Source: a virus. From it: a DNA stretch of 20,918 bases. The stretch is taken from the IMG/VR virus record IMGVR_UViG_3300045836_000152, positions 1-20,918 of that record. One strand, given 5' to 3'. A model generated the notes under the pieces. That model made no database searches. It was not told the origin of the DNA and worked only from the letters and a program-made list of their open reading frames with translations. Positions 1,975 through 10,557 of the stretch are shown here, piece after piece (position 1 is the stretch's first letter; each line of letters opens with the position of its first letter). The position numbers and the translations under genes are program-made.

Positions 1975-2363
1975 TGCGACCTCGGTCGGCAAAGGATCAT
2001 GAGAGCCCAGCGCTCGGTATCCGACCAAGTCGCAGCGCGTTTGGCCAGGGCGTCAGCCTTCAGCATTTGATCTTCTTGAGCGCCATCGGCCCATTCTATA
2101 ATGCCGATCCTAATTCTATCGGCGGAGACGATTTGTTCTCCGACACCTCGGTCCAGCAGCATCGCATTCCCTTCGGTCGGCATGACGTGCTCAATCAATT
2201 GGCGCTCCCAATCAGTCAGTTGGGGCGCGAGCGCAGGAATGATTTCGCGCAGACGCTTAAGGTCTGCTGTAAGCAGCATGGGGAGGCCGATGCCCATGGC
2301 TTCGGCCTCTAAGTCCCACTGCGCAATGATAGAGTTGTAGCGTAGTTGGATGCGGTCAGACAT
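1971..2363 (-). CDS. Hypothetical protein between two HTH genes
   Basis: A 130-residue protein starting MSDRIQLRYNSIIAQWDLEA. The start at 2363 overlaps the end of the multi-HTH gene by 8 bases, and its stop overlaps the small HTH gene (ATGA), so the three are translated as a set. It is largely helical with acidic patches and several Trp residues, has no membrane segment, and ends in a basic RPRSQ. I find no catalytic motif. A regulatory partner of the flanking DNA-binding proteins is possible from synteny only. Confidence 0.6.
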   Translation of the reverse strand: MSDRIQLRYNSIIAQWDLEAEAMGIGLPMLLTADLKRLREIIPALAPQLTDWERQLIEHVMPTEGNAMLLDRGVGEQIVSADRIRIGIIEWADGAQEDQMLKADALAKRAATWSDTERWALMILCRPRSQ

Positions 2364-3027
2364 CGCTACTCTCTTTCGCGGCCAGTTCGATGGCAATTTT
2401 CCCGATAAGGGCGCCGGATGCCCCCGTATCGAGTATGATTTTAGCGATGGGGGCACCGCGTTCCAGCATCTCAATAATTCTATCTCTTTTGGTCACGTTG
2501 CGTGGCCGCTTAATACCCTCCTTGCGGACCATAGCCCAAAGACTACTTGGACCCATTCCAGTCTCATGAGCTATTTCCTCTACAGTTTTCGATGTATTAG
2601 ACAGCATTTCTAAAGCAATGGACCTGTTAGGATGAAAAACAAGCTTTCCCCTTTTTCCTGATGCCGGTATACCAGCCGCTTTAAGTACCCGGTATATCAC
2701 CACGCGATTGGCGCTAACCTCTTTTTGTATTGCAGAGACACTCACTGTACCGTCTTCGCCCTTAAGGGCTTTTGCGGTAGCCAAAATCTTTGCGTCTCTA
2801 TCTAAATCAGTAGGGCGTCCGGATAACTTATTCCCCACCATGCGATTGGGTGCGAATGCCTCCGCAGCAACCACAGCAACACCAGGCGTTCTACGCGCGC
2901 CGCTTTCCCATTGTTTATATGTATTGAGCGGGGTCAGCAGTCGCGCGGCCATTTGAGCAGGGCCATCACCAATGCGCGTGCGAGCGGCAATGAGCCGCTC
3001 GCGATAGTCATTTCCTGAGGAAGCCAT
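2356..3027 (-). CDS. DNA-binding protein with several HTH segments
   Basis: A 223-residue protein with up to four helix-turn-helix-like segments. The N-terminal one (about 7-55, MAARLLTPLNTYKQWESGAR) resembles the XRE-like domain of the small regulator at 1783-1974. Further segments are near 84-120 (VSVSAIQKEVSANRVVIYRV), 138-172 (TVEEIAHETGMGPSSLWAMV) and 181-215 (IIEMLERGAPIAKIILDTGA). The start at 3027 lies one base after the previous stop (TAAAATG); a start at 3045 inside that gene is also possible. The stretch around 2380-2900 is visibly more A/T-rich than the rest of the window, suggesting separate acquisition. It is a good candidate for the main transcription regulator of this arm, or a resolvase-like accessory DNA binder without a catalytic domain. 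No catalytic Ser or Tyr context is visible. Confidence 0.7.
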   Translation of the reverse strand: MASSGNDYRERLIAARTRIGDGPAQMAARLLTPLNTYKQWESGARRTPGVAVVAAEAFAPNRMVGNKLSGRPTDLDRDAKILATAKALKGEDGTVSVSAIQKEVSANRVVIYRVLKAAGIPASGKRGKLVFHPNRSIALEMLSNTSKTVEEIAHETGMGPSSLWAMVRKEGIKRPRNVTKRDRIIEMLERGAPIAKIILDTGASGALIGKIAIELAAKESSDV

Positions 3028-3028
3028 T

Positions 3029-3256
3029 TTAGAAGGCGCGGCCATTAATCGTCCAAGAGACAGTGACGCCATCGCAATCGGCGCCAAGGTAAGCGTCGCG
3101 GAGGATCTTGTCGGCTTCTTCGACGGTGGCCGCTTCTTCCGCCCAGGTCACGATATAGCCGCCATCGGTGAACCAGTCGCGGCAGTCATAGCCGCCGTCG
3201 CGGTCGCCGGGTTGTTCGTTCGGAATGATCAGGTTGAGTTCGACGCGGTTGGTCAT
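3029..3256 (-). CDS. 74-aa hypothetical protein, first gene of the leftward unit
   Basis: A 74-residue acidic protein beginning MTNRVELNLIIPNEQPGDRD. The start at 3256 is preferred because GGAG lies 6 bases upstream; upstream in-frame Met codons at 3262 and 3268 would cover that site. The sequence (GGYIVTWAEEAATVEEADKI, then GVTVSWTING) suggests a small alpha/beta domain. It is the first gene after the leftward promoter region at 3317-3349 and stops one base before the multi-HTH gene. Function unknown. Confidence 0.6.
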   Translation of the reverse strand: MTNRVELNLIIPNEQPGDRDGGYDCRDWFTDGGYIVTWAEEAATVEEADKILRDAYLGADCDGVTVSWTINGRAF

Positions 3257-3296
3257 TTTCATCTCCATTTGGCCCCTCGCGGGCCGCTCTGGTGGA

Positions 3297-3315
3297 CATC
3301 GGCGACTTGCCGATG
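3297..3315. other. Stem-loop in the leftward leader
   Basis: CATCGGC and GCCGATG pair perfectly around the loop GACTT (7-bp stem, 5-nt loop). It lies directly downstream of the leftward -10 region and about 40 bp before the start at 3256, so it would form near the 5' end of that transcript. It could stabilise the mRNA or be a protein-binding site. Confidence 0.5.
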
Positions 3316-3316
3316 A

Positions 3317-3349
3317 ATTATAATTACGCTCAATGAGCGTAGCCGTCAA
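3317..3349 (-). promoter_or_regulatory. Leftward promoter with palindromic operator
   Basis: On the minus strand TTGACG (3344-3349) acts as a -35. Seventeen bases later comes TAATTA, and four bases further a perfect TATAAT (3317-3322), so the exact -10 is ambiguous. The spacer is filled by the perfect palindrome TACGCTCAATGAGCGTA (3325-3341: 7-bp arms, 3-bp centre), ideal for a dimeric repressor that would shut the promoter. The first gene starts at 3256. Autoregulation by one of the operon's own HTH proteins is the simplest reading, but is inferred. Confidence 0.6.
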
Positions 3350-3367
3350 GCGCTAAATCAATCACGT

Positions 3368-3382
3368 ATTACGGATATCCGA
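3368..3382 (+). promoter_or_regulatory. Shared 15-bp motif, site B
   Basis: ATTACGGATATCCGA on the plus strand, with the perfect 10-bp palindrome CGGATATCCG (3372-3381) at its core. Its reverse complement matches 1750-1764 at 14 of 15 positions. The centre is about 30 bp upstream of the leftward -35 at 3344-3349, close to the 25 bp seen at the other promoter. An A-run follows directly. Confidence 0.5.
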
Positions 3383-3403
3383 AAAATCTTATTGGCGCAG
3401 CGA

Positions 3404-3425
3404 AAGCCTTGCGCCAGCAAGGCTT
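3404..3425. other. Perfect 9-bp stem-loop
   Basis: AAGCCTTGC and GCAAGGCTT pair perfectly around GCCA. No T tract follows on either strand, so it is not a standard terminator. It may be an operator, an RNA structure or part of a larger protein-DNA assembly. Confidence 0.45.
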
Positions 3426-3462
3426 GAGTGGTGCGCGCCGATCCCGCATTTCCTTCGTAAGT

Positions 3463-3501
3463 GAGGCCGCAGGCGCGCCACGCGCGCCGGTGCGCGGCCT
3501 C
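3463..3501. other. Nested GC-rich stem-loop
   Basis: The outer arms GAGGCCGC (3463-3470) and GCGGCCTC (3494-3501) pair perfectly. Inside them GGCGCGC and GCGCGCC (3472-3488) form a second perfect stem with a CAC loop. A nested design of this strength is unlikely by chance even in GC-rich DNA. No T tract follows. It could be a structured RNA element, or a DNA structure such as a packaging or replication signal. Confidence 0.45.
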
Positions 3502-3555
3502 TCCGATCAATCCCCGGCCCCCGTGCGCGACAGGTTGCCGTCGCCATTCACCCGG

Positions 3556-3576
3556 ACCCTCTGGCTAAGAGAGGGT
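3556..3576. other. Perfect 7-bp stem-loop
   Basis: ACCCTCT and AGAGGGT pair around GGCTAAG. It directly precedes the CACTACA array and is one of five stem-loops within about 315 bp. Confidence 0.4.
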
Positions 3577-3580
3577 TGCT

Positions 3581-3820
3581 CACTACAAACCCACTACAGG
3601 CCCCCTGTAGTAGCCAAAAGGAAGAAAACACGGGGCTTGCGCGGTCACTACAGTCACTGCGCTCACTACGCGGAAAATCTGGCGTGCAGGCGCGCGCGGG
3701 CGCATGCGTATAGAGATGTATCTGTAGTAGGTGTAGTAGATGTAGTATGGTGAAAAGGCGCTGAAAATTCAGAAAAAATGCCGCTACATGGGCAAATCGT
3801 GATATGTATTGGCTGTAGTG
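3581..3820. repeat. CACTACA/TGTAGTR iteron-like array
   Basis: Copies of CACTACA or close variants occur at 3581, 3592, 3646, 3655 (variant CACTGCG) and 3664. The inverse form TGTAGTR occurs at 3606, 3723, 3732, 3741 and 3814. Two groups keep an exact 9-bp register: 3645/3654/3663 (TCACTNNNC/G) and 3723/3732/3741 (TGTAGTAGG, TGTAGTAGA, TGTAGTATG). The copies at 3593-3611 form a perfect inverted repeat, ACTACAGG/CCTGTAGT, with a 3-nt centre. Arrays like this usually bind an oligomeric protein, such as a replication initiator, partition protein or small terminase. The small-terminase candidate starts 25 bp after the last copy, so packaging initiation (cos/pac) or an origin are the leading readings. 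Confidence 0.6.
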
Positions 3821-3844
3821 ATTAAAAAATAGGCGATTTAATCC

Positions 3845-4432
3845 GTGAATACACTGCCTGACCTGTTCGGGGGTATCGAGCCCCCCTCCGGCATCGCGCC
3901 AGAAAAACGCGGGCGGGGCCGGCCGCGCGGGTCGCGGAACAAGGCGTCGGGCGACCTGTTGAAGTGGATCAGTCACGAGACCAAGGGGTTGACGCCTGGT
4001 CAGCAGCTCGGCCACGTGGCGGGCGTGACGCCTGCAGATATCAGGCGGGCAAAAGCCTGGGCGACGGAAAAGGGTTATGACTGGCGGCCGATCCATCCGG
4101 TGTTTCTGGCGCTGAACCATCGGGCGCATGCCCTGGCCGCCATGAACGGCTGGTCGACGCAGGACGCCTGGTCGGTCATCATGTCGGCGCATAAGGAGCT
4201 GCTGGCCTACACCGCGCACAAGCTGCCGGCTGTGGAGCCGGTCAAGCCGGATCTCCGGCCTACGCTGTACGTCGATGGGGCGCAGCTGGGTGACGCGGTC
4301 AATCCTAGTCAAGACGTTGAAGAACAAGACTTTTTTGAGTTGCTGCCTATTGGCGTCGCACAAGACGCGTCGCACATGGATGCGGAAAGCCTTGAGGCGC
4401 AAGGGTTTGAGCCCGATAGGTCAGAGGATTAA
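3845..4432 (+). CDS. Putative terminase small subunit / DNA-binding protein
   Basis: A 195-residue protein with a GTG start at 3845. Near the N-terminus is a basic AT-hook-like patch (21-33, KRGRGRPRGSRNK), followed by a helical region about 35-130 (GLTPGQQLGHVAGVTPADIR reads like a helix-turn-helix) and an acidic C-terminal tail. It is the first rightward gene and lies upstream of the large terminase, the usual place for the small subunit that recognises packaging DNA. Sequence alone does not place it in a named family, so the call rests on position plus DNA-binding features. The ribosome site is weak (TAGGCGAT). Unusually, about 260 bp separate it from the large subunit, and a perfect 13-bp hairpin spans its stop codon. 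Confidence 0.55.
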   Translation: MNTLPDLFGGIEPPSGIAPEKRGRGRPRGSRNKASGDLLKWISHETKGLTPGQQLGHVAGVTPADIRRAKAWATEKGYDWRPIHPVFLALNHRAHALAAMNGWSTQDAWSVIMSAHKELLAYTAHKLPAVEPVKPDLRPTLYVDGAQLGDAVNPSQDVEEQDFFELLPIGVAQDASHMDAESLEAQGFEPDRSED

Positions 4433-4446
4433 TAATCCTCTGACCT
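4418..4446. other. 13-bp perfect hairpin across the stop codon
   Basis: AGGTCAGAGGATT (4418-4430) pairs with AATCCTCTGACCT (4434-4446) around AAT. The TAA stop of the preceding gene occupies the last stem base and part of the loop. There is no T tract, so it is not a simple intrinsic terminator. It could be a protein-binding dyad, an mRNA 3'-end stabiliser or an RNase III-type processing site between small and large terminase. Confidence 0.6.
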
Positions 4447-4468
4447 GACGTCCTGGGCCGCGCCTGAC

Positions 4469-4502
4469 GCGCGGGGAGGGTGACCATGAGACCCTCCCGC
4501 GC
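4469..4502. other. GC-rich hairpin with one bulge
   Basis: GCGC plus GGGAGGGT on the left pair with ACCCTCCC plus GCGC on the right, giving 12 bp with a single bulged G and a 9-nt loop. It follows the perfect hairpin by 22 bases. No T tract is seen. It may reduce read-through or stabilise the upstream mRNA end. Confidence 0.45.
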
Positions 4503-4570
4503 GACCCACCCCGGCCGAAGGCACCCCCCACCCCCCGAAAACCGGCCGGCCATCGCCGAGAAGCGGGCCC

Positions 4571-4601
4571 CGGCCAGACCGGCATAGGCCGAAAAATTTT
4601 T
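4571..4601 (+). terminator. Weak terminator candidate ending in A5T5
   Basis: CGGCC (4571-4575) pairs with GGCCG (4587-4591), followed at once by AAAAATTTTT (4592-4601). The stem is short, so termination would be partial. The A5T5 tract stands out in very GC-rich DNA and could instead be a bent or melted DNA element. Confidence 0.3.
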
Positions 4602-4695
4602 AAATCCGCGCCCTCTTCCTTAGGGCCCCGGACCGACCGGCGACCGGCCTTGGCCCAGACTGCCCGAACCTCTACAGACAACACGGGGTCGGGGT

Positions 4696-6258
4696 TTGGG
4701 TGTTCCTGCATTTTCGAAAGACTTGACCGGATACGCGGGGCCGGTGGCGCGCGCCTACGAGCTGAGCAACGAGGCAACGAGCGTCATCATCGGCCCGACG
4801 GGCGGCGGCAAGACAGAGTCATCTGTTCGGAGAATTCTGAGGATCGCGCGCAGTCAGCACCCTAGCCCAAAAGACGGGATTCGCAAGTGCCGAATTGTGT
4901 GCGTGGGGCCGACCTACAGGGACCTGTGGGACAAGGCCATACCGTCGTACTGGAAGGTATTTCCGAAGAGTATGGGGCAGTGGACGGGCGGAAAAGGCGA
5001 CCCCGCGACGCATATAATGGATTTGAACCTTGTCGAGATGGTCAACGGCAAGCGTGTCGAGACGTCGTTGCATATCGAAGTGTGGTTCCGCGCCAAGGGC
5101 AGTGAACAGAACCTCGAAGACTTCGTTCGGGGCCTGGAGTGCACCGCCTGGTGGCTCCAGGAAATGGACCAGCTCGACGCGTCGATCCTGTCCCTGGTAA
5201 GCAACCGCGTAGGCCGCTATCCGGAGCCCGAAGACCGATGGGACCCGGAAGACCCGATCCATGCCGCCCATATCAAGGCCATGGGCTGGAAACCTGCGTT
5301 CAAGGGCGTGTGGGGCGACAGCAACATGCCCGTCATCGACAGCTGGCTGGACAAGCTGGCTTTCAAGTTGAAAGGCCTTGGCCGAGGTCTGTTCCTCCAG
5401 CCGCCCGGGCTGCTCGATGACGGCACGGTCAATCCGAAGGCCGAGAACCTGCATAACCTTCGCCGGATCGACCCGCGAACCTACGCAGCGCTGGCGGAAG
5501 GCATGCTCAAGGCGCCCGATGGCAATGGCCAGTACGACGTCGACCGCCTGCTGAAGTGCAAGCGGATGCACGATCGACGGGGAAGGCCGGTCTACGACAT
5601 CTTCGTGGAGACCGACGTCAAGGTCACCGGCCTGACCGCCGATCCAAACCAGCTGCTGATCATCGGCGCGGATACCGGGGGCACTCTGAAGAACGCGGCC
5701 GTGTTCATGCAGCCCAGGCGCAACGGTGGCGTCAATTGCCTTGCCGAGATCAGCCCGCGCGAACGGCAGCTGACGCTGACCGAGTTTTCGCACGAGATCC
5801 TGTCGATCCTGTCGATGCGCTTCTACACCTGCCGGCATGTCCTGCTGGTGATCGATCCGGCCGCCAAGGCGAAGATGGTCGACGGCATCTTCCACCAGGA
5901 TATCAGCTACTGGCAATTCCTGATGGCCCAGACGGGCCTGGACACCGTTCCGGCATCGACGAACGATCCCGGCCTGCGGCGCACGGCCGGCAAGCGGCCG
6001 ATGAAGGAAAAGAACCACCTGTTCATCGACGCGGACTTCTGTCCGGACCTCATGGCGGCCCTGGGCGGGGGCTATCACTTTCGCAAGGTTGGCGACGCCG
6101 TGTCGCCTGAGCCTGCCAAGAACGACTACAGCCACGTGGCCGAGGCCTATGAGTACGGCTGCCTGCAGATCGACGGCGCGTCGATCTACTACGGCGAAGC
6201 TGGCCCCAAAACAACGCTGCCCAATGGCGAAGCCTACGATCAGGGCGCTATCTTCTGA
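4696..6258 (+). CDS. Terminase large subunit (TerL)
   Basis: A 520-residue DNA-packaging motor. The N-terminal ATPase has a Walker A motif, GPTGGGKT (33-40), and a Walker B-like AWWLQEMD with the acidic pair near E156/D158. The C-terminal RNase H-like nuclease shows LLIIGADTGG (D326), LLVIDPAAK (D387) and a late acidic residue, NDYSHVAEAYEYG (D477), the usual three-acid set. Length is typical of TerL. The start is uncertain: the frame is open from about 4624 and the first likely codon is TTG at 4696, just before the conserved-looking GYAGPVARAY. A rare start would keep its level low, as a motor needed in few copies allows. It works at the portal encoded downstream to cut and pump genome DNA into the prohead. 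Confidence 0.92.
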   Translation: MGVPAFSKDLTGYAGPVARAYELSNEATSVIIGPTGGGKTESSVRRILRIARSQHPSPKDGIRKCRIVCVGPTYRDLWDKAIPSYWKVFPKSMGQWTGGKGDPATHIMDLNLVEMVNGKRVETSLHIEVWFRAKGSEQNLEDFVRGLECTAWWLQEMDQLDASILSLVSNRVGRYPEPEDRWDPEDPIHAAHIKAMGWKPAFKGVWGDSNMPVIDSWLDKLAFKLKGLGRGLFLQPPGLLDDGTVNPKAENLHNLRRIDPRTYAALAEGMLKAPDGNGQYDVDRLLKCKRMHDRRGRPVYDIFVETDVKVTGLTADPNQLLIIGADTGGTLKNAAVFMQPRRNGGVNCLAEISPRERQLTLTEFSHEILSILSMRFYTCRHVLLVIDPAAKAKMVDGIFHQDISYWQFLMAQTGLDTVPASTNDPGLRRTAGKRPMKEKNHLFIDADFCPDLMAALGGGYHFRKVGDAVSPEPAKNDYSHVAEAYEYGCLQIDGASIYYGEAGPKTTLPNGEAYDQGAIF

Positions 6259-6461: not shown

Positions 6462-8158
6462 TGGCCGATATCCAGTACCTCCTGAAGCAACAGGCTGTCA
6501 TGGAAGGCGTGCGCCGGCTGCGCGAAAGCGAGTGGCAGCAGATCGCCGACTACTTCCTGCCGACCAAGAATTTCCTGATCGAGCGGATCAAGGGCCAGTC
6601 CATTCCGCGCCAGGTCATGACGTCCGTGCCGCAAAAGGCCCTGGCCCGCTTTGCGGCCATGTTCATCGGCTTCCTGATCGACCCGGTAAAGCCGTTTATC
6701 GTTCCGAACGTCAAGCAAGGCCTGATCGGCGCCGGGCGTGGCCTGAAGCTGGACGGCGACGCCCAGGATTACCTCGGCAAGCTGTCGTGGCAGGTCCGCG
6801 ACCGCATGATGAACAGCCGCTCGGGCTTTCGCTCGTCCCTGTCGCGCGCGGCGCTGGAACTGGGCGCTTTCGGCAACGCCGTCATCTGGACCGGACGCCG
6901 CCGGGGCTTCGGTCCCGTCTACGTTTCACGGCCGATCCGCCAGTGCTGGTTCGATATCGACGACGAGGACAACGTCAACCGGCTGCACTACCAGTTCAAG
7001 ATGCCGATATGGCAGGTCCTGGAGAAATATCCGGCCGCCAAGGACAGCAAGAAGCTGGATAACATGCGGCGGGGCCAGGACGCCGATATGCAGGAGATCA
7101 AGCTCCTGCACTGCGTCTATCCGCGTGGTGGCTATAGCGAACGGGGCGGGATCGCCACCAACAAGCCGTTCGGCGAATGCATCTTCATGCGCGACTGCGA
7201 TGACGTCGTGTTGTCTGAGGGGGGCTATGATGACTTTCCGTTCGCCGTACCCCGCACGCGCGTAGCCGAGGGCAACCCCTACGGCCAAGGCTTCGCCTGG
7301 ATCGCCCTGCCGGACGCCATGGTGCTCAACCAACTGCAACAGGACGTGGAATACGGCGTCGGCCAACGCGTCGCGCCCGCCATGTTCATGCCGTCGCGCA
7401 TCATGGGCAAGGTCGACCGCCGTCGCGGTGCGATGAACTATTACGATCCGAAACTGCTGGGCTTCCAGACGCTTCAGCAGGCCGTGCAGGCGATGCCGGC
7501 CGGCGGCGACGTCGGCGTGGGCAAAGACTACATGCAGATGCTGGCCCAGTGGATCGAAGACGACTTCATGATCGACTGGATGAAATTGCCCGAACACGGG
7601 GCGATGACGGCCACCGAAGTGAACGATCGCAAGCAATTGCGGGCTGTGGGCCTGACCGGCGCGCTGGGGACGATCGAGCGCGAGCTGATGGGCGTTCTGG
7701 GCGACCGCACCCTTGCCGTCATGACGGAAGAAAACATGGTGGGCGTGCCGCCGGAGGCGCTTCAGGGCGTGGGTGTCGACTGGGACTATGCCGGGCCGCT
7801 GGCTATGGCTCAGCAACAGGCCATGGTCGACTCGGTGCAGCGCCTGTTCGAACTGAACCAGATGGCCCGCGCCGGAGCGCAAGACGACTTCATCGACGTC
7901 GTCGTGTTCGACGAAGGCCTGCGCCTGGCCGCCAATTCGCTGGGCCTGCCGCCCGCCATCATCGAGACCATGGAGGCGGTCGCCCAGGCGAAAGCCCAGC
8001 AGGCACAGCAAAAGCAGGAACAGGCCGAGGCCCAGAATGCCCAGACCGGCGCGGCGGCCTTCCAGTCTGGCGCCCAGGGCCTGGCCGCCTTGCAAGGCGC
8101 GGCCACCGCCGGCGCAGCGAACAATATCCGTTCACCGCAAATGCAGATGGCGGCCTAA
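6461..8158 (+). CDS. Portal / head-to-tail connector protein
   Basis: A 565-residue protein of the podovirus head-tail connector family (T7 gp8-like). It would form the dodecameric ring through which DNA enters and leaves the capsid. Typical family features include the N-terminal REsEWQQIADYFLPTKNFL helix region, the early FIGFLIDP segment, LELGAFGNAVIWTGRR, an IKLLHCVYPRG strand, FPFAVPRTRVAEGNPYGQGF, and the channel-helix region near MTATEVNDRKQLRAVGLTG. The C-terminal 60 residues are Gln/Ala-rich and helical (AKAQQAQQKQEQAEAQNAQ), probably lining the inner core. The length fits the family. It follows the 64-aa gene by TGATG coupling and precedes a Bbp19-like gene. Confidence 0.92.
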   Translation: MADIQYLLKQQAVMEGVRRLRESEWQQIADYFLPTKNFLIERIKGQSIPRQVMTSVPQKALARFAAMFIGFLIDPVKPFIVPNVKQGLIGAGRGLKLDGDAQDYLGKLSWQVRDRMMNSRSGFRSSLSRAALELGAFGNAVIWTGRRRGFGPVYVSRPIRQCWFDIDDEDNVNRLHYQFKMPIWQVLEKYPAAKDSKKLDNMRRGQDADMQEIKLLHCVYPRGGYSERGGIATNKPFGECIFMRDCDDVVLSEGGYDDFPFAVPRTRVAEGNPYGQGFAWIALPDAMVLNQLQQDVEYGVGQRVAPAMFMPSRIMGKVDRRRGAMNYYDPKLLGFQTLQQAVQAMPAGGDVGVGKDYMQMLAQWIEDDFMIDWMKLPEHGAMTATEVNDRKQLRAVGLTGALGTIERELMGVLGDRTLAVMTEENMVGVPPEALQGVGVDWDYAGPLAMAQQQAMVDSVQRLFELNQMARAGAQDDFIDVVVFDEGLRLAANSLGLPPAIIETMEAVAQAKAQQAQQKQEQAEAQNAQTGAAAFQSGAQGLAALQGAATAGAANNIRSPQMQMAA

Positions 8159-8161
8159 GCC

Positions 8162-8587
8162 ATGACGCATTCGATGCCACGGGATATCCCTGCGCCGCAT
8201 GTCGGCCTGGTCGGCTTCGATATCGAGGCGGCCGTGCACATGGCCCGCGACCAGAAGAATATCAAGGAAACCTACCAGAAGGTGTTCGGCACCACAGAAG
8301 GCCGGGCGGTGCTGATCGACATGCTGGTTCGCGGCAACCTCTTATTGCCTCGGCTGGGCAGCATGACGCTGCAAGAGCGGGCGCAGCTCGACGGCCATTC
8401 GGCCATGGTCCTTGAAACCCTCGGCCTGGCAGGGGTCGATGTCTATGAGATCGGCGCGGCCCTGCTGTCCGCCGCCGCCGTCAACCAACGCATGGAGCGC
8501 GCACATGAACGATCAGACGAACACGGGGACGACGACCACGGAACAGACATCCTCGACGACGCCGGAGGCGGGGACGGCCTGGATTAA
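8162..8587 (+). CDS. Bbp19-like phage protein
   Basis: A 141-residue protein starting MTHSMPRDIPAPHVGLVGFD. Residues about 35-100 (KVFGTTEGRAVLIDMLVRGN, then a long helix LDGHSAMVLETLGLAG) follow the pattern of the Bbp19 family of Bordetella phage BPP-1, a small helical protein found between portal and scaffold genes. The assignment rests on this pattern plus position. The C-terminal 25 residues are highly acidic (DEHGDDDHGTDILDDAGGG) and are encoded in DNA that also encodes the scaffold N-terminus, an overlap of 83 bases in another frame. It is probably a minor head or connector component; the exact role is unknown. Confidence 0.65.
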   Translation: MTHSMPRDIPAPHVGLVGFDIEAAVHMARDQKNIKETYQKVFGTTEGRAVLIDMLVRGNLLLPRLGSMTLQERAQLDGHSAMVLETLGLAGVDVYEIGAALLSAAAVNQRMERAHERSDEHGDDDHGTDILDDAGGGDGLD

Positions 8588-9383
8588 CAGCCTGCCGGAA
8601 GCCTATCGTAACGATCCCAACATTGTCCGGTTCTCGACGACCGCAAATCCGATGGAGGCGCTGCTGGCCTCCCAGGTGGGCTATTCGAAGGCCCATGGCG
8701 TGCCGGCCGAACAGCTTTTGCGCATGCCGCGCGAGGATGACGCGGACGGCTGGGGGCAACTGTACGGGCGCCTTGGGCGGCCTGAAGCCGCCGACAAGTA
8801 CGACCTGGCGGCGTTCAACACCAAGAACGAAGGCGACAAGGCGTTCGTCGAAGGCTTCCGTGGAAAGGCTTTCGAACTCGGCTACACACAGCGCCAGATG
8901 GCCGGCATGCTCGACTATCTGAACACATCGTTGGCGACAGTCGACCAGCAGCTGGAAGCCCAGGCGAAGGCCTATCGCGATGCCGGCGAAGCCGAGCTGC
9001 GCAAGGCCTGGGGCCAGAAGTACGATACTTACAAGAACGAAATCCCGGGTGTCGTCGAAAAGCTGACGGCGAAGGCCTGCTTGAGCGCTGAGGAAGCCAA
9101 AGGCGTCTATGAGAAGCTGAACGCGGACGGCCTGACAGATAACCCGATCTTCATGCGCATGCTGGGCGCCATGGCGGACCTCATGGCCGAGCCTGGCGCG
9201 GCGCCGGGCGGTGCTGGCGGATCGCAGTCTACTGGCGCACTCACGCCCGCCGATGCAAAGAGCCAAATGGCGGCCTTCAATTCCAATCCCGCAAAACAAG
9301 CCGCGCTATACAATACCTCGGACCCGGGCCACCGGGCGGCCAAGGAAGAATGGCAGAAACTCATCGAGGCCATGTCGGCCTGA
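8505..9383 (+). CDS. Capsid scaffold / assembly protein
   Basis: A 292-residue protein. The start at 8505 has GGAG 7 bases upstream and lies inside the preceding gene. The N-terminus is Thr-rich and disordered. The middle (about 100-215) is a long charged helical region (AFVEGFRGKAFELGYTQRQM, QQLEAQAKAYRDAGEAELRK) typical of scaffolds. A Gly/Ala linker follows, then a C-terminal helical domain (PGHRAAKEEWQKLIEAMSA) likely to bind the capsid protein. Position between portal and major capsid protein supports the call. In prohead assembly it would template capsid formation and then leave. No protease motif is visible. Confidence 0.8.
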   Translation: MNDQTNTGTTTTEQTSSTTPEAGTAWINSLPEAYRNDPNIVRFSTTANPMEALLASQVGYSKAHGVPAEQLLRMPREDDADGWGQLYGRLGRPEAADKYDLAAFNTKNEGDKAFVEGFRGKAFELGYTQRQMAGMLDYLNTSLATVDQQLEAQAKAYRDAGEAELRKAWGQKYDTYKNEIPGVVEKLTAKACLSAEEAKGVYEKLNADGLTDNPIFMRMLGAMADLMAEPGAAPGGAGGSQSTGALTPADAKSQMAAFNSNPAKQAALYNTSDPGHRAAKEEWQKLIEAMSA

Positions 9384-9573: not shown

Positions 9574-10557
9574 ATGTCCGATTCTTATGCTCAGTACGTG
9601 ACCGCGGTCACGACGCAACTCAACAACGTCCCGCAGCAGATGCAATCCCTGCTGCAAAACACCGTCCAGTACGATGCCAACTGGACCGATCCCGGCACTT
9701 CGTTCTTCCTGGACGATCGCGGCAAGACCGACCCCAAGGAAGTCCAAGGGAAGGGCGGCCGTATCGAGCCGCGCGAACTGAACGGCGAACGCCGCGGCGG
9801 CAACTTCGTCGGCGACGAAGACTGGTTCTACGTCTACGGCCAGGACAAGGCCCGCATGTTGCTCGACCCGACGTCGGCGGACATGCGTTCGCTCATGGCC
9901 GGTAAAGAGCGTAAGAAGGACTACGACATCATCAACAACCTGATGTTCGGCCTTACCCCGATGGCTACCGGCGGCCCCGGCGCCTCGGCGCTGGATACAA
10001 CGGAAGCCCTGCCGAACAGCCAAATCATCGCGCTGGCCGACCGTCACAACATCCACGACACGGAAAAGCCGATCATCGCGACGAACGGTTCCCTCCACCT
10101 GACGGTGGGCAAGCTGATCACGACGCGCAATCTGCTGAAGCGCAGCCATGTCGGTGACGTGATGAAGCCGAAAATGCACATCGCCGTCGACGAAAACGCC
10201 AAGGGCAACCTGCTGGCCAGCGTCGCGACCACATCGAAGTACTTTAACGACATCACCGCCCTGGTCAACGGCGACGTCGATACCTTCATGGGCTTCCAGT
10301 TCCACGAGTTCTCCAGCCTTGACGGCCCGCTGCCCTACTATGTCAGCGGCGGCATCAACTGCGTGAGCTACGCCGCATGGATCGACAGCGCCGTCTACTA
10401 CAAGGAGCGGCCCATCGAGAACGTCAACGTGGCCAAGGATATCGGCATCAAGAGCCACCCGCTCCAGGTCTACTACATGCGCGAACGTGCCTGGGCGCGC
10501 CGCTACAAGAACGGCGTCGTCCGCATCGAGTGCACCCAGGACCGTCAACTGCAATAA
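9574..10557 (+). CDS. Major capsid protein (HK97-fold, BPP-1 type)
   Basis: A 327-residue main shell protein. The sequence shows the Gly-rich extended region near 45-70 (KGGRIEPRELNGERRGGNFV), the long mixed A-domain, and a C-terminal YYMRERAWARRYKNGVVRIE, matching capsid proteins that follow scaffold in BPP-1-type podoviruses. The N-terminus is a helical arm with no long leader, so no cleaved delta domain is expected. It is preceded by a 190-bp gap with a stem-loop and followed by a strong terminator at 10562-10592, an arrangement fitting a highly expressed gene. The ribosome site (GGGGCTACC) is only moderate. The exact family assignment is from pattern recognition. Confidence 0.88.
   Translation: MSDSYAQYVTAVTTQLNNVPQQMQSLLQNTVQYDANWTDPGTSFFLDDRGKTDPKEVQGKGGRIEPRELNGERRGGNFVGDEDWFYVYGQDKARMLLDPTSADMRSLMAGKERKKDYDIINNLMFGLTPMATGGPGASALDTTEALPNSQIIALADRHNIHDTEKPIIATNGSLHLTVGKLITTRNLLKRSHVGDVMKPKMHIAVDENAKGNLLASVATTSKYFNDITALVNGDVDTFMGFQFHEFSSLDGPLPYYVSGGINCVSYAAWIDSAVYYKERPIENVNVAKDIGIKSHPLQVYYMRERAWARRYKNGVVRIECTQDRQLQ

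Follow-up and report, generated by a model that had tools for sequence, protein, structure and literature searches.

A twelve-site iteron array before the terminase genes of a tailed phage, probably a replication origin of the type used by self-loading initiator helicases

Origins with repeated initiator sites are known from several replicons. In iteron plasmids and lambda-type origins the iterons are about 17–22 bp long, and in the plasmids DnaA boxes usually accompany them. In the origin of phage P4 (ori/crr), the alpha protein is a primase-helicase initiator that acts on short iterons. PICI origins, which support autonomous replication, have two iteron sets that flank an AT-rich melting region; the paper that describes them also mentions alpha with its cognate site (PMC6092414). 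The SaPI Rep protein binds, through its C-terminal domain, iterons situated just downstream of its own gene, apparently as two hexamers, and the sites bound by Cch2, short direct repeats (AAGTG), likewise lie downstream of the gene that encodes it (PMC7581432).

Here we describe an array of 7-bp iterons (240 bp) in the window, a name that we use for the complete IMG/VR record, itself a fragment of 20,918 bp. Very probably the array is the replication origin of this phage, of the type used by self-loading initiator helicases (SaPI Rep/SCCmec Cch). It shares with the SaPI/PICI origin two sets of short iterons, with words that change between relatives, around a central region; moreover, in relatives it lies 3′ of a gene for a primase-helicase with a predicted SaPI Rep/Cch-like fold. 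It differs in belonging to complete tailed phages, in its fixed dyad of ∼12 sites and in its alternating CG-rich centre, whereas PICI are satellites with AT-rich centres. The array would thus work like a SaPI/PICI origin, but we do not file it as PICI because its centre is not AT-rich and the initiator gene is off the fragment. With the SCCmec system it has in common that Cch is the top structural match of the modelled primase-helicase of relatives and that Cch2 acts on short direct repeats downstream; for the putative SCCmec origin, however, only three iterons were reported and no twelve-site dyad. The likeness to the P4 origin (a primase-helicase initiator and short iterons) is one of general description, with arrangement and words uncompared. 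Iteron plasmid and lambda-type origins share the repeated initiator sites but differ in their longer iterons and in the DnaA boxes, none of which is near this array: no sequence before position 8716 matched TTWTNCACA, even when one mismatch was allowed.

Twelve iterons around a dyad

The right part of the window is a late operon with genes for a probable terminase small subunit (TerS), the terminase large subunit (TerL) and the portal protein. The left part holds small leftward ORFs; none was recognised as a replication protein, and therefore the replication genes of the phage are not seen on this record. The array lies in the divergent intergenic region between the leftward genes and the rightward operon. 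No Rfam family was found in 3000–4700. The features are as follows.

3581..3820, no strand: whole origin-like array, 12 iterons with dyad symmetry, span near the 249-bp median of 52 relatives
3581..3587, plus strand: iteron 1, CACTACA, outer left pair, exact
3592..3598, plus strand: iteron 2, CACTACA, outer left pair, exact
3606..3612, minus strand: iteron 3, TGTAGTA, reversed outer left site
3646..3652, plus strand: iteron 4, CACTACA, inner left trio, exact
3655..3661, plus strand: iteron 5, CACTGCG, inner left trio, degenerate with two mismatches, read from the sequence at a place that the 9-bp phase and the L229 layout predict
3664..3670, plus strand: iteron 6, CACTACG, inner left trio, one mismatch
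3671..3722, no strand: centre, presumed opening site, a GC-rich alternating purine-pyrimidine tract followed by TATAGAGATGTAT
3723..3729, minus strand: iteron 7, TGTAGTA, inner right trio
3732..3738, minus strand: iteron 8, TGTAGTA, inner right trio
3741..3747, minus strand: iteron 9, TGTAGTA, inner right trio
3748..3840, no strand: AT-rich flank, possible alternative opening region (37% GC over 3742–3840, 63% in the contig)
3782..3788, plus strand: iteron 10, CGCTACA, reversed outer right site, one mismatch, 9 bp nearer the centre than its L229 counterpart
3805..3811, minus strand: iteron 11, TGTATTG, outer right pair, one mismatch, position predicted by L229
3814..3820, minus strand: iteron 12, TGTAGTG, outer right pair, exact
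3845..4432, plus strand: 195-aa protein, probable terminase small subunit; the L229 ORF that follows the array and precedes TerL is 36% identical
4696..6258, plus strand: terminase large subunit TerL (phrog_2), 48% identical to that of L229 and 58% to that of L002
6461..8158, plus strand: portal/head-tail connector (PF12236, 4.6e-64)

The orientations of the sites read ++−+++ to the left and −−−+−− to the right of a 52-bp centre. Since this order is its own reverse complement, six sites lie on each side of a dyad. The sequence-only reading had counted about nine copies of the element in both orientations; the element and the orientations hold, while the number rises to 12, four of them degenerate. 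The two sets that it had placed at a 9-bp period were recovered by TRF at 3644–3669 and 3723–3752, its inverted pair is present (CCACTACAGgccccCTGTAGTAG), and the array does end 25 bp before the GTG-initiated ORF at 3845. This inverted pair (3591–3613) could also form a 10-bp stem that, on the minus strand, runs into a T-rich tail; such a terminator-like match is at the level expected by chance.

The nearest complete example among the relatives is IMGVR_UViG_2843553439_000003 (L229), whose TerL and TerS are 48% and 36% identical to those of the window. L229 has its primase gene at 5.8–7.7 kb, an array at 8687–8937, TerS at 8943 and TerL at 9812. Its array consists of twelve sites with a different word, TCCAAC, at offsets from the inner edges of −82, −73, −58, −17, −9 and 0 on the left and 0, 9, 17, 68, 83 and 92 on the right; the corresponding offsets in the window are −83, −72, −58, −18, (−9) and 0, and 0, 9, 18, 59, 82 and 91. 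Ten of the 11 compared sites agree within 1 bp. The array is therefore kept in a relative with near-identical layout in spite of sequence drift, as the sequence-only reading had asked of related phages. The degenerate sites at 3664, 3782 and 3805 are within one mismatch of CACTACA and the one at 3655 has two mismatches; compared with the site positions of L229, the site at 3782 is up to 9 bp away and the other three up to 1 bp.

Eight of the 15 copies of ACTACA/TGTAGT in the 20.9-kb contig fall within the 240-bp array. In 2000 dinucleotide shuffles of the array region no 6-mer occurred more than five times, against the eight observed. Raw 6-mer counts taken without composition correction were not significant in this GC-rich contig (four of 20 whole-window shuffles reached eight); for this reason we used composition-corrected scores and a layout fixed beforehand. 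By the former, the array is the top repeat window of the contig, with log10 P of −11.9 (runner-up −5.8). By the latter, with the L229 layout, the window fills eight of 12 slots exactly, while 40 shuffled windows gave at most five and the rest of the window gave four.

The array and the primase-helicase gene in related phages

Other TerL relatives have an array in the same place with yet other words: AATCTACG in L003, TGTAACG in L004 and L135, GGTTCT in L009 (MT835534) and CCTAAC in L140. In L009 and L140 a primase-helicase gene directly precedes the array; the contigs of L002, L003 and L004 contained no primase-helicase of the phrog_21086-type family. A scan of genome contigs with TerL gave no relatives. 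A scan for TGTAGT at a 9-bp period returned mostly apparent protein-coding repeats, along with three other phages (L130, L036 and L093) that have two-armed arrays. In L130 a TGTAGTTR array in both orientations (∼7970–8260), with the same word as in the window, lies beside structural genes, 2.4 kb from a CHC2 primase-helicase. In L036 a stand-alone DnaA domain IV protein (1314–1643; Bac_DnaA_C, 1.6e-11) is encoded near the TGTAGT two-armed array (551–900) and a CHC2 primase.

Another possibility is that the sites are operators for a repressor of the phage or a regulator of its late genes, such as the multi-HTH protein encoded at 2356–3087. The position between leftward genes and a rightward late operon would suit an operator, and the protein does have weak HTH matches. 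Yet no sigma-70-like promoter was found in 3350–3900, none of the leftward proteins of the window has a relative in the loci that carry the array, where the array itself is conserved, several relatives (L140 and L009 among them) have the array outside a divergent region, and a twelve-site dyad with a Z-like centre is not expected of operators. We regard an operator as very unlikely.

A primase-helicase gene is absent from the 20.9-kb fragment. Since the window's own primase is off the fragment, we infer the initiator. For the primase-helicase of L229 a structural model was predicted from 20 sequences (pLDDT 82, pTM 0.68). Its best match was SCCmec Cch (5dgk; Z 16.1 over 427 residues), followed by MCM helicases, with the SaPI5 primase-helicase at Z 13.7; Foldseek matches included the SaPI5, PriRep1, D5-type and NrS-1 helicases. 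A PDB sequence search with the primase alignment gave nothing significant. The model suggests that the primase-helicase of the relatives resembles SaPI Rep/Cch in its helicase fold, as expected of such an initiator.

Scanning viral contigs with the primase alignment yielded 448 relatives in one viral collection, of which 80 were fetched. From these loci we took 52 representatives (diverged phages with a phrog_21086-type primase-helicase, primase identity <70%, loci of ∼13 kb). The strongest repeat window of the locus lay between the primase-helicase gene and TerL in 51 of the 52, compared with 9.7 expected from length, a figure that is somewhat favourable because the representatives were drawn from loci with a clear primase-TerL array; of the unfiltered 80 loci, about 75 had their best repeat window 3′ of the primase. 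In the 52 loci the median array span is 249 bp (IQR 238–262), with 30 different top 6-mers. Neighbouring sites on the same strand are spaced mainly 8–9 and 11–12 bp apart, so that the 9-bp period, which had seemed unusual, is not peculiar to this phage. The fraction of sites with a dyad partner was 0.82 versus 0.66 after orientation shuffling, and it was higher than in the shuffled arrays in 47 of the 52.

L142 has six GTATAC palindromes within 90 bp (4740–4830) immediately before a TerS-like ORF; they look operator-like and are apart from its GAACAC array. Very strong 6-mer repeats far from the primase were seen in L207 (∼101–500, 26 copies) and L187 (∼1151–1550, 16 copies).

Gene orders that separate an origin from a packaging site

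In most loci the array is preceded by the primase and followed by TerS and then TerL, and so position alone cannot decide between an origin and a packaging initiation site (pac or cos). At a packaging site, rings of TerS would bind the iterons, with cleavage by TerL beside them. Proximity to the primase speaks for an origin: the median distance from array to primase end is 282 bp (≤500 bp in 29 of 52). Several observations agree with packaging. In 74 of 74 loci an array lies between primase and TerL, with TerS starting a median of 55 bp beyond it, and across the family the array keeps a steadier distance from TerL than from the primase, which makes the linkage to TerS also tight. In the analysis of motif similarity, the coefficient of the TerS N-terminal part was small and positive (0.10, P = 0.02). 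Full-length TerS similarity, however, does not explain the word when primase and TerL are included (P = 0.11; 0.71 in the first run). The coefficients for TerL, which stands for general phylogeny, and for the primase were 0.23 and 0.15. The first run of this covariation analysis favoured the primase, and the run with better TerS models mainly reflected phylogeny; it does not decide between origin and packaging. The 195-aa protein of the window has no family match, and searches for its relatives in phages and viral contigs found none; judged by its sequence and place it is probably TerS, a neighbour that need not bind the array.

Phages with other gene orders are more telling. In phi1422 the array comes immediately after the primase, 7.2 kb from TerS. 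In Acjo_20 it is located just before the primase, and several genes separate it from TerS. Dolphis, ST4 and fHe-Yen8-01 (genomes of ∼92 kb) each have a single dominant array (log10 P of −13.9, −18.4 and −19.1), 6–12 kb from the primase and some 27–38 kb from the best TerL match around the circle. PY223 is the opposite case: its array lies 12 kb away from the primase, close to the terminase. Five TerL relatives with no match to this primase (BcepC6B, Rollin, vB_Pun_Y3, MEP301 and Mx8) had no such array before TerS, that is, TerL relatives without the primase are also without the array. An array of CTACCC in both orientations was seen in BcepC6B (NC_005887; ∼25,220–25,495, or 220–495 of L011) beside the integrase gene gp25; it probably represents integrase arm-type or attachment sites and for this reason was not counted.

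The 19,064-bp circular plasmid pLH84-a-B (NZ_CP100496, L234) has an array directly after the primase; it encodes ParA, an integrase and a TerS-like protein and has no annotated large terminase or capsid gene. This replicon looks like an extrachromosomal phage satellite. Another extrachromosomal element, the 40-kb Phaeobacter phage-plasmid pGal_G40 (NC_023143), carries its CHC2 primase and helicase as split genes, and only a weak array, of CGTTAC, directly follows the helicase gene (30339–32222).

The array is thus not kept beside the terminase whatever the replication genes are, as a pac or cos site would be, and we consider packaging initiation unlikely. Iteron arrays act as centromeres in some plasmids, and the extrachromosomal state of pGal_G40 and pLH84-a-B would agree with a role in partition, as a centromere-like site by which a temperate phage is maintained as a plasmid. 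The array nevertheless goes with the primase-helicase gene and not with ParA or ParB genes, and the window showed no recognisable Par gene, making a partition site most unlikely of all. Of the three options that the sequence-only reading had left side by side, replication origin is the one favoured here; packaging is disfavoured by arrays situated away from the terminase and by their absence where the primase is missing, and nothing in the loci supports partition.

We count several points against an origin: the primase-helicase is off the fragment, linkage to TerS is tight, similarity of the words tracks phylogeny at least as well as it tracks the primase, the centre is not AT-rich and PY223 has its array near the terminase; Microcystis phage Mwe-JY13 had no strong array and four larger phages had none adjoining the primase. 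In several complete genomes the cumulative GC skew, also counted here, runs past the array with no switch; it is uninformative.

The centre and a possible course of initiation

Two sets of six short iterons flank 3671–3722, the arrangement of a PICI origin. The centre of the window has 62% GC, against 63% in the contig, and so it lacks the AT-richness of PICI origins. Its Z-like score is in the top 0.04% of contig positions but is not the highest. An alternating purine-pyrimidine centre is also present in GC-rich relatives such as L229 (CTCGCGCGCGCGCATGTG) and L140 (TATACATGTGTGCGCGCGCGCGCGCGCATGTA). The most Z-DNA-like 40-bp window of the locus falls in the array in 35 of the 52 loci versus 1.26 expected, and base shuffling inside the arrays brings the number to a mean of 0. 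In phi1422, Acjo_20, S-H1 and KLER1-1 the same architecture has an AT-rich centre.

Initiation at the proposed origin may run as follows. A phage-encoded primase-helicase, the product of a gene outside the fragment, would bind the 6–7-bp iterons. Each set of six sites, one on either side of the dyad, would guide a hexamer of its own, giving two rings opposed across the centre. Opening would follow at the centre, where alternating CG/CA steps adjoin a TATA-containing stretch, with a contribution from the AT-rich flanks, and replication would start, probably in both directions. The array and its twelve-site dyad, their conservation under changing words, the association with the primase-helicase gene, the Z-like centre and the initiator-like fold in relatives are what the analysis shows. 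Binding of the iterons by the primase-helicase, the ratio of six sites per hexamer, the opening at the centre and the presence of such a gene in this phage are what we infer here; the thought of a protein ring or filament, raised when only the spacing had been seen, accords with this, as the spacing fits a hexameric helicase.

A wider proposal is that tailed phages of a large class have one origin grammar in common: two helicase hexamers would be nucleated by twelve short sites, half of them on each side, around a Z-DNA-forming centre, a B-to-Z transition and not AT-richness would open the strands in GC-rich genomes, and the words would drift while the geometry stays fixed. We advance it tentatively, and on balance find it somewhat doubtful in this general form.

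In the literature searched we found no paper that describes a fixed dyad of twelve sites, a centre of alternating CG or so broad a distribution among full phages; these features are apparently new. The array provides a predicted replication origin for hundreds of phages with unannotated origins, given the 448 relatives of the primase. A type of origin that had been ascribed to phage satellites alone would extend to full phages, and this bears on the source of satellite replicons. With the fixed six-plus-six geometry, the placement of two hexamers by self-loading helicases becomes directly testable, and the CG-alternating centre suggests that a GC-rich origin may open without reliance on AT-richness.
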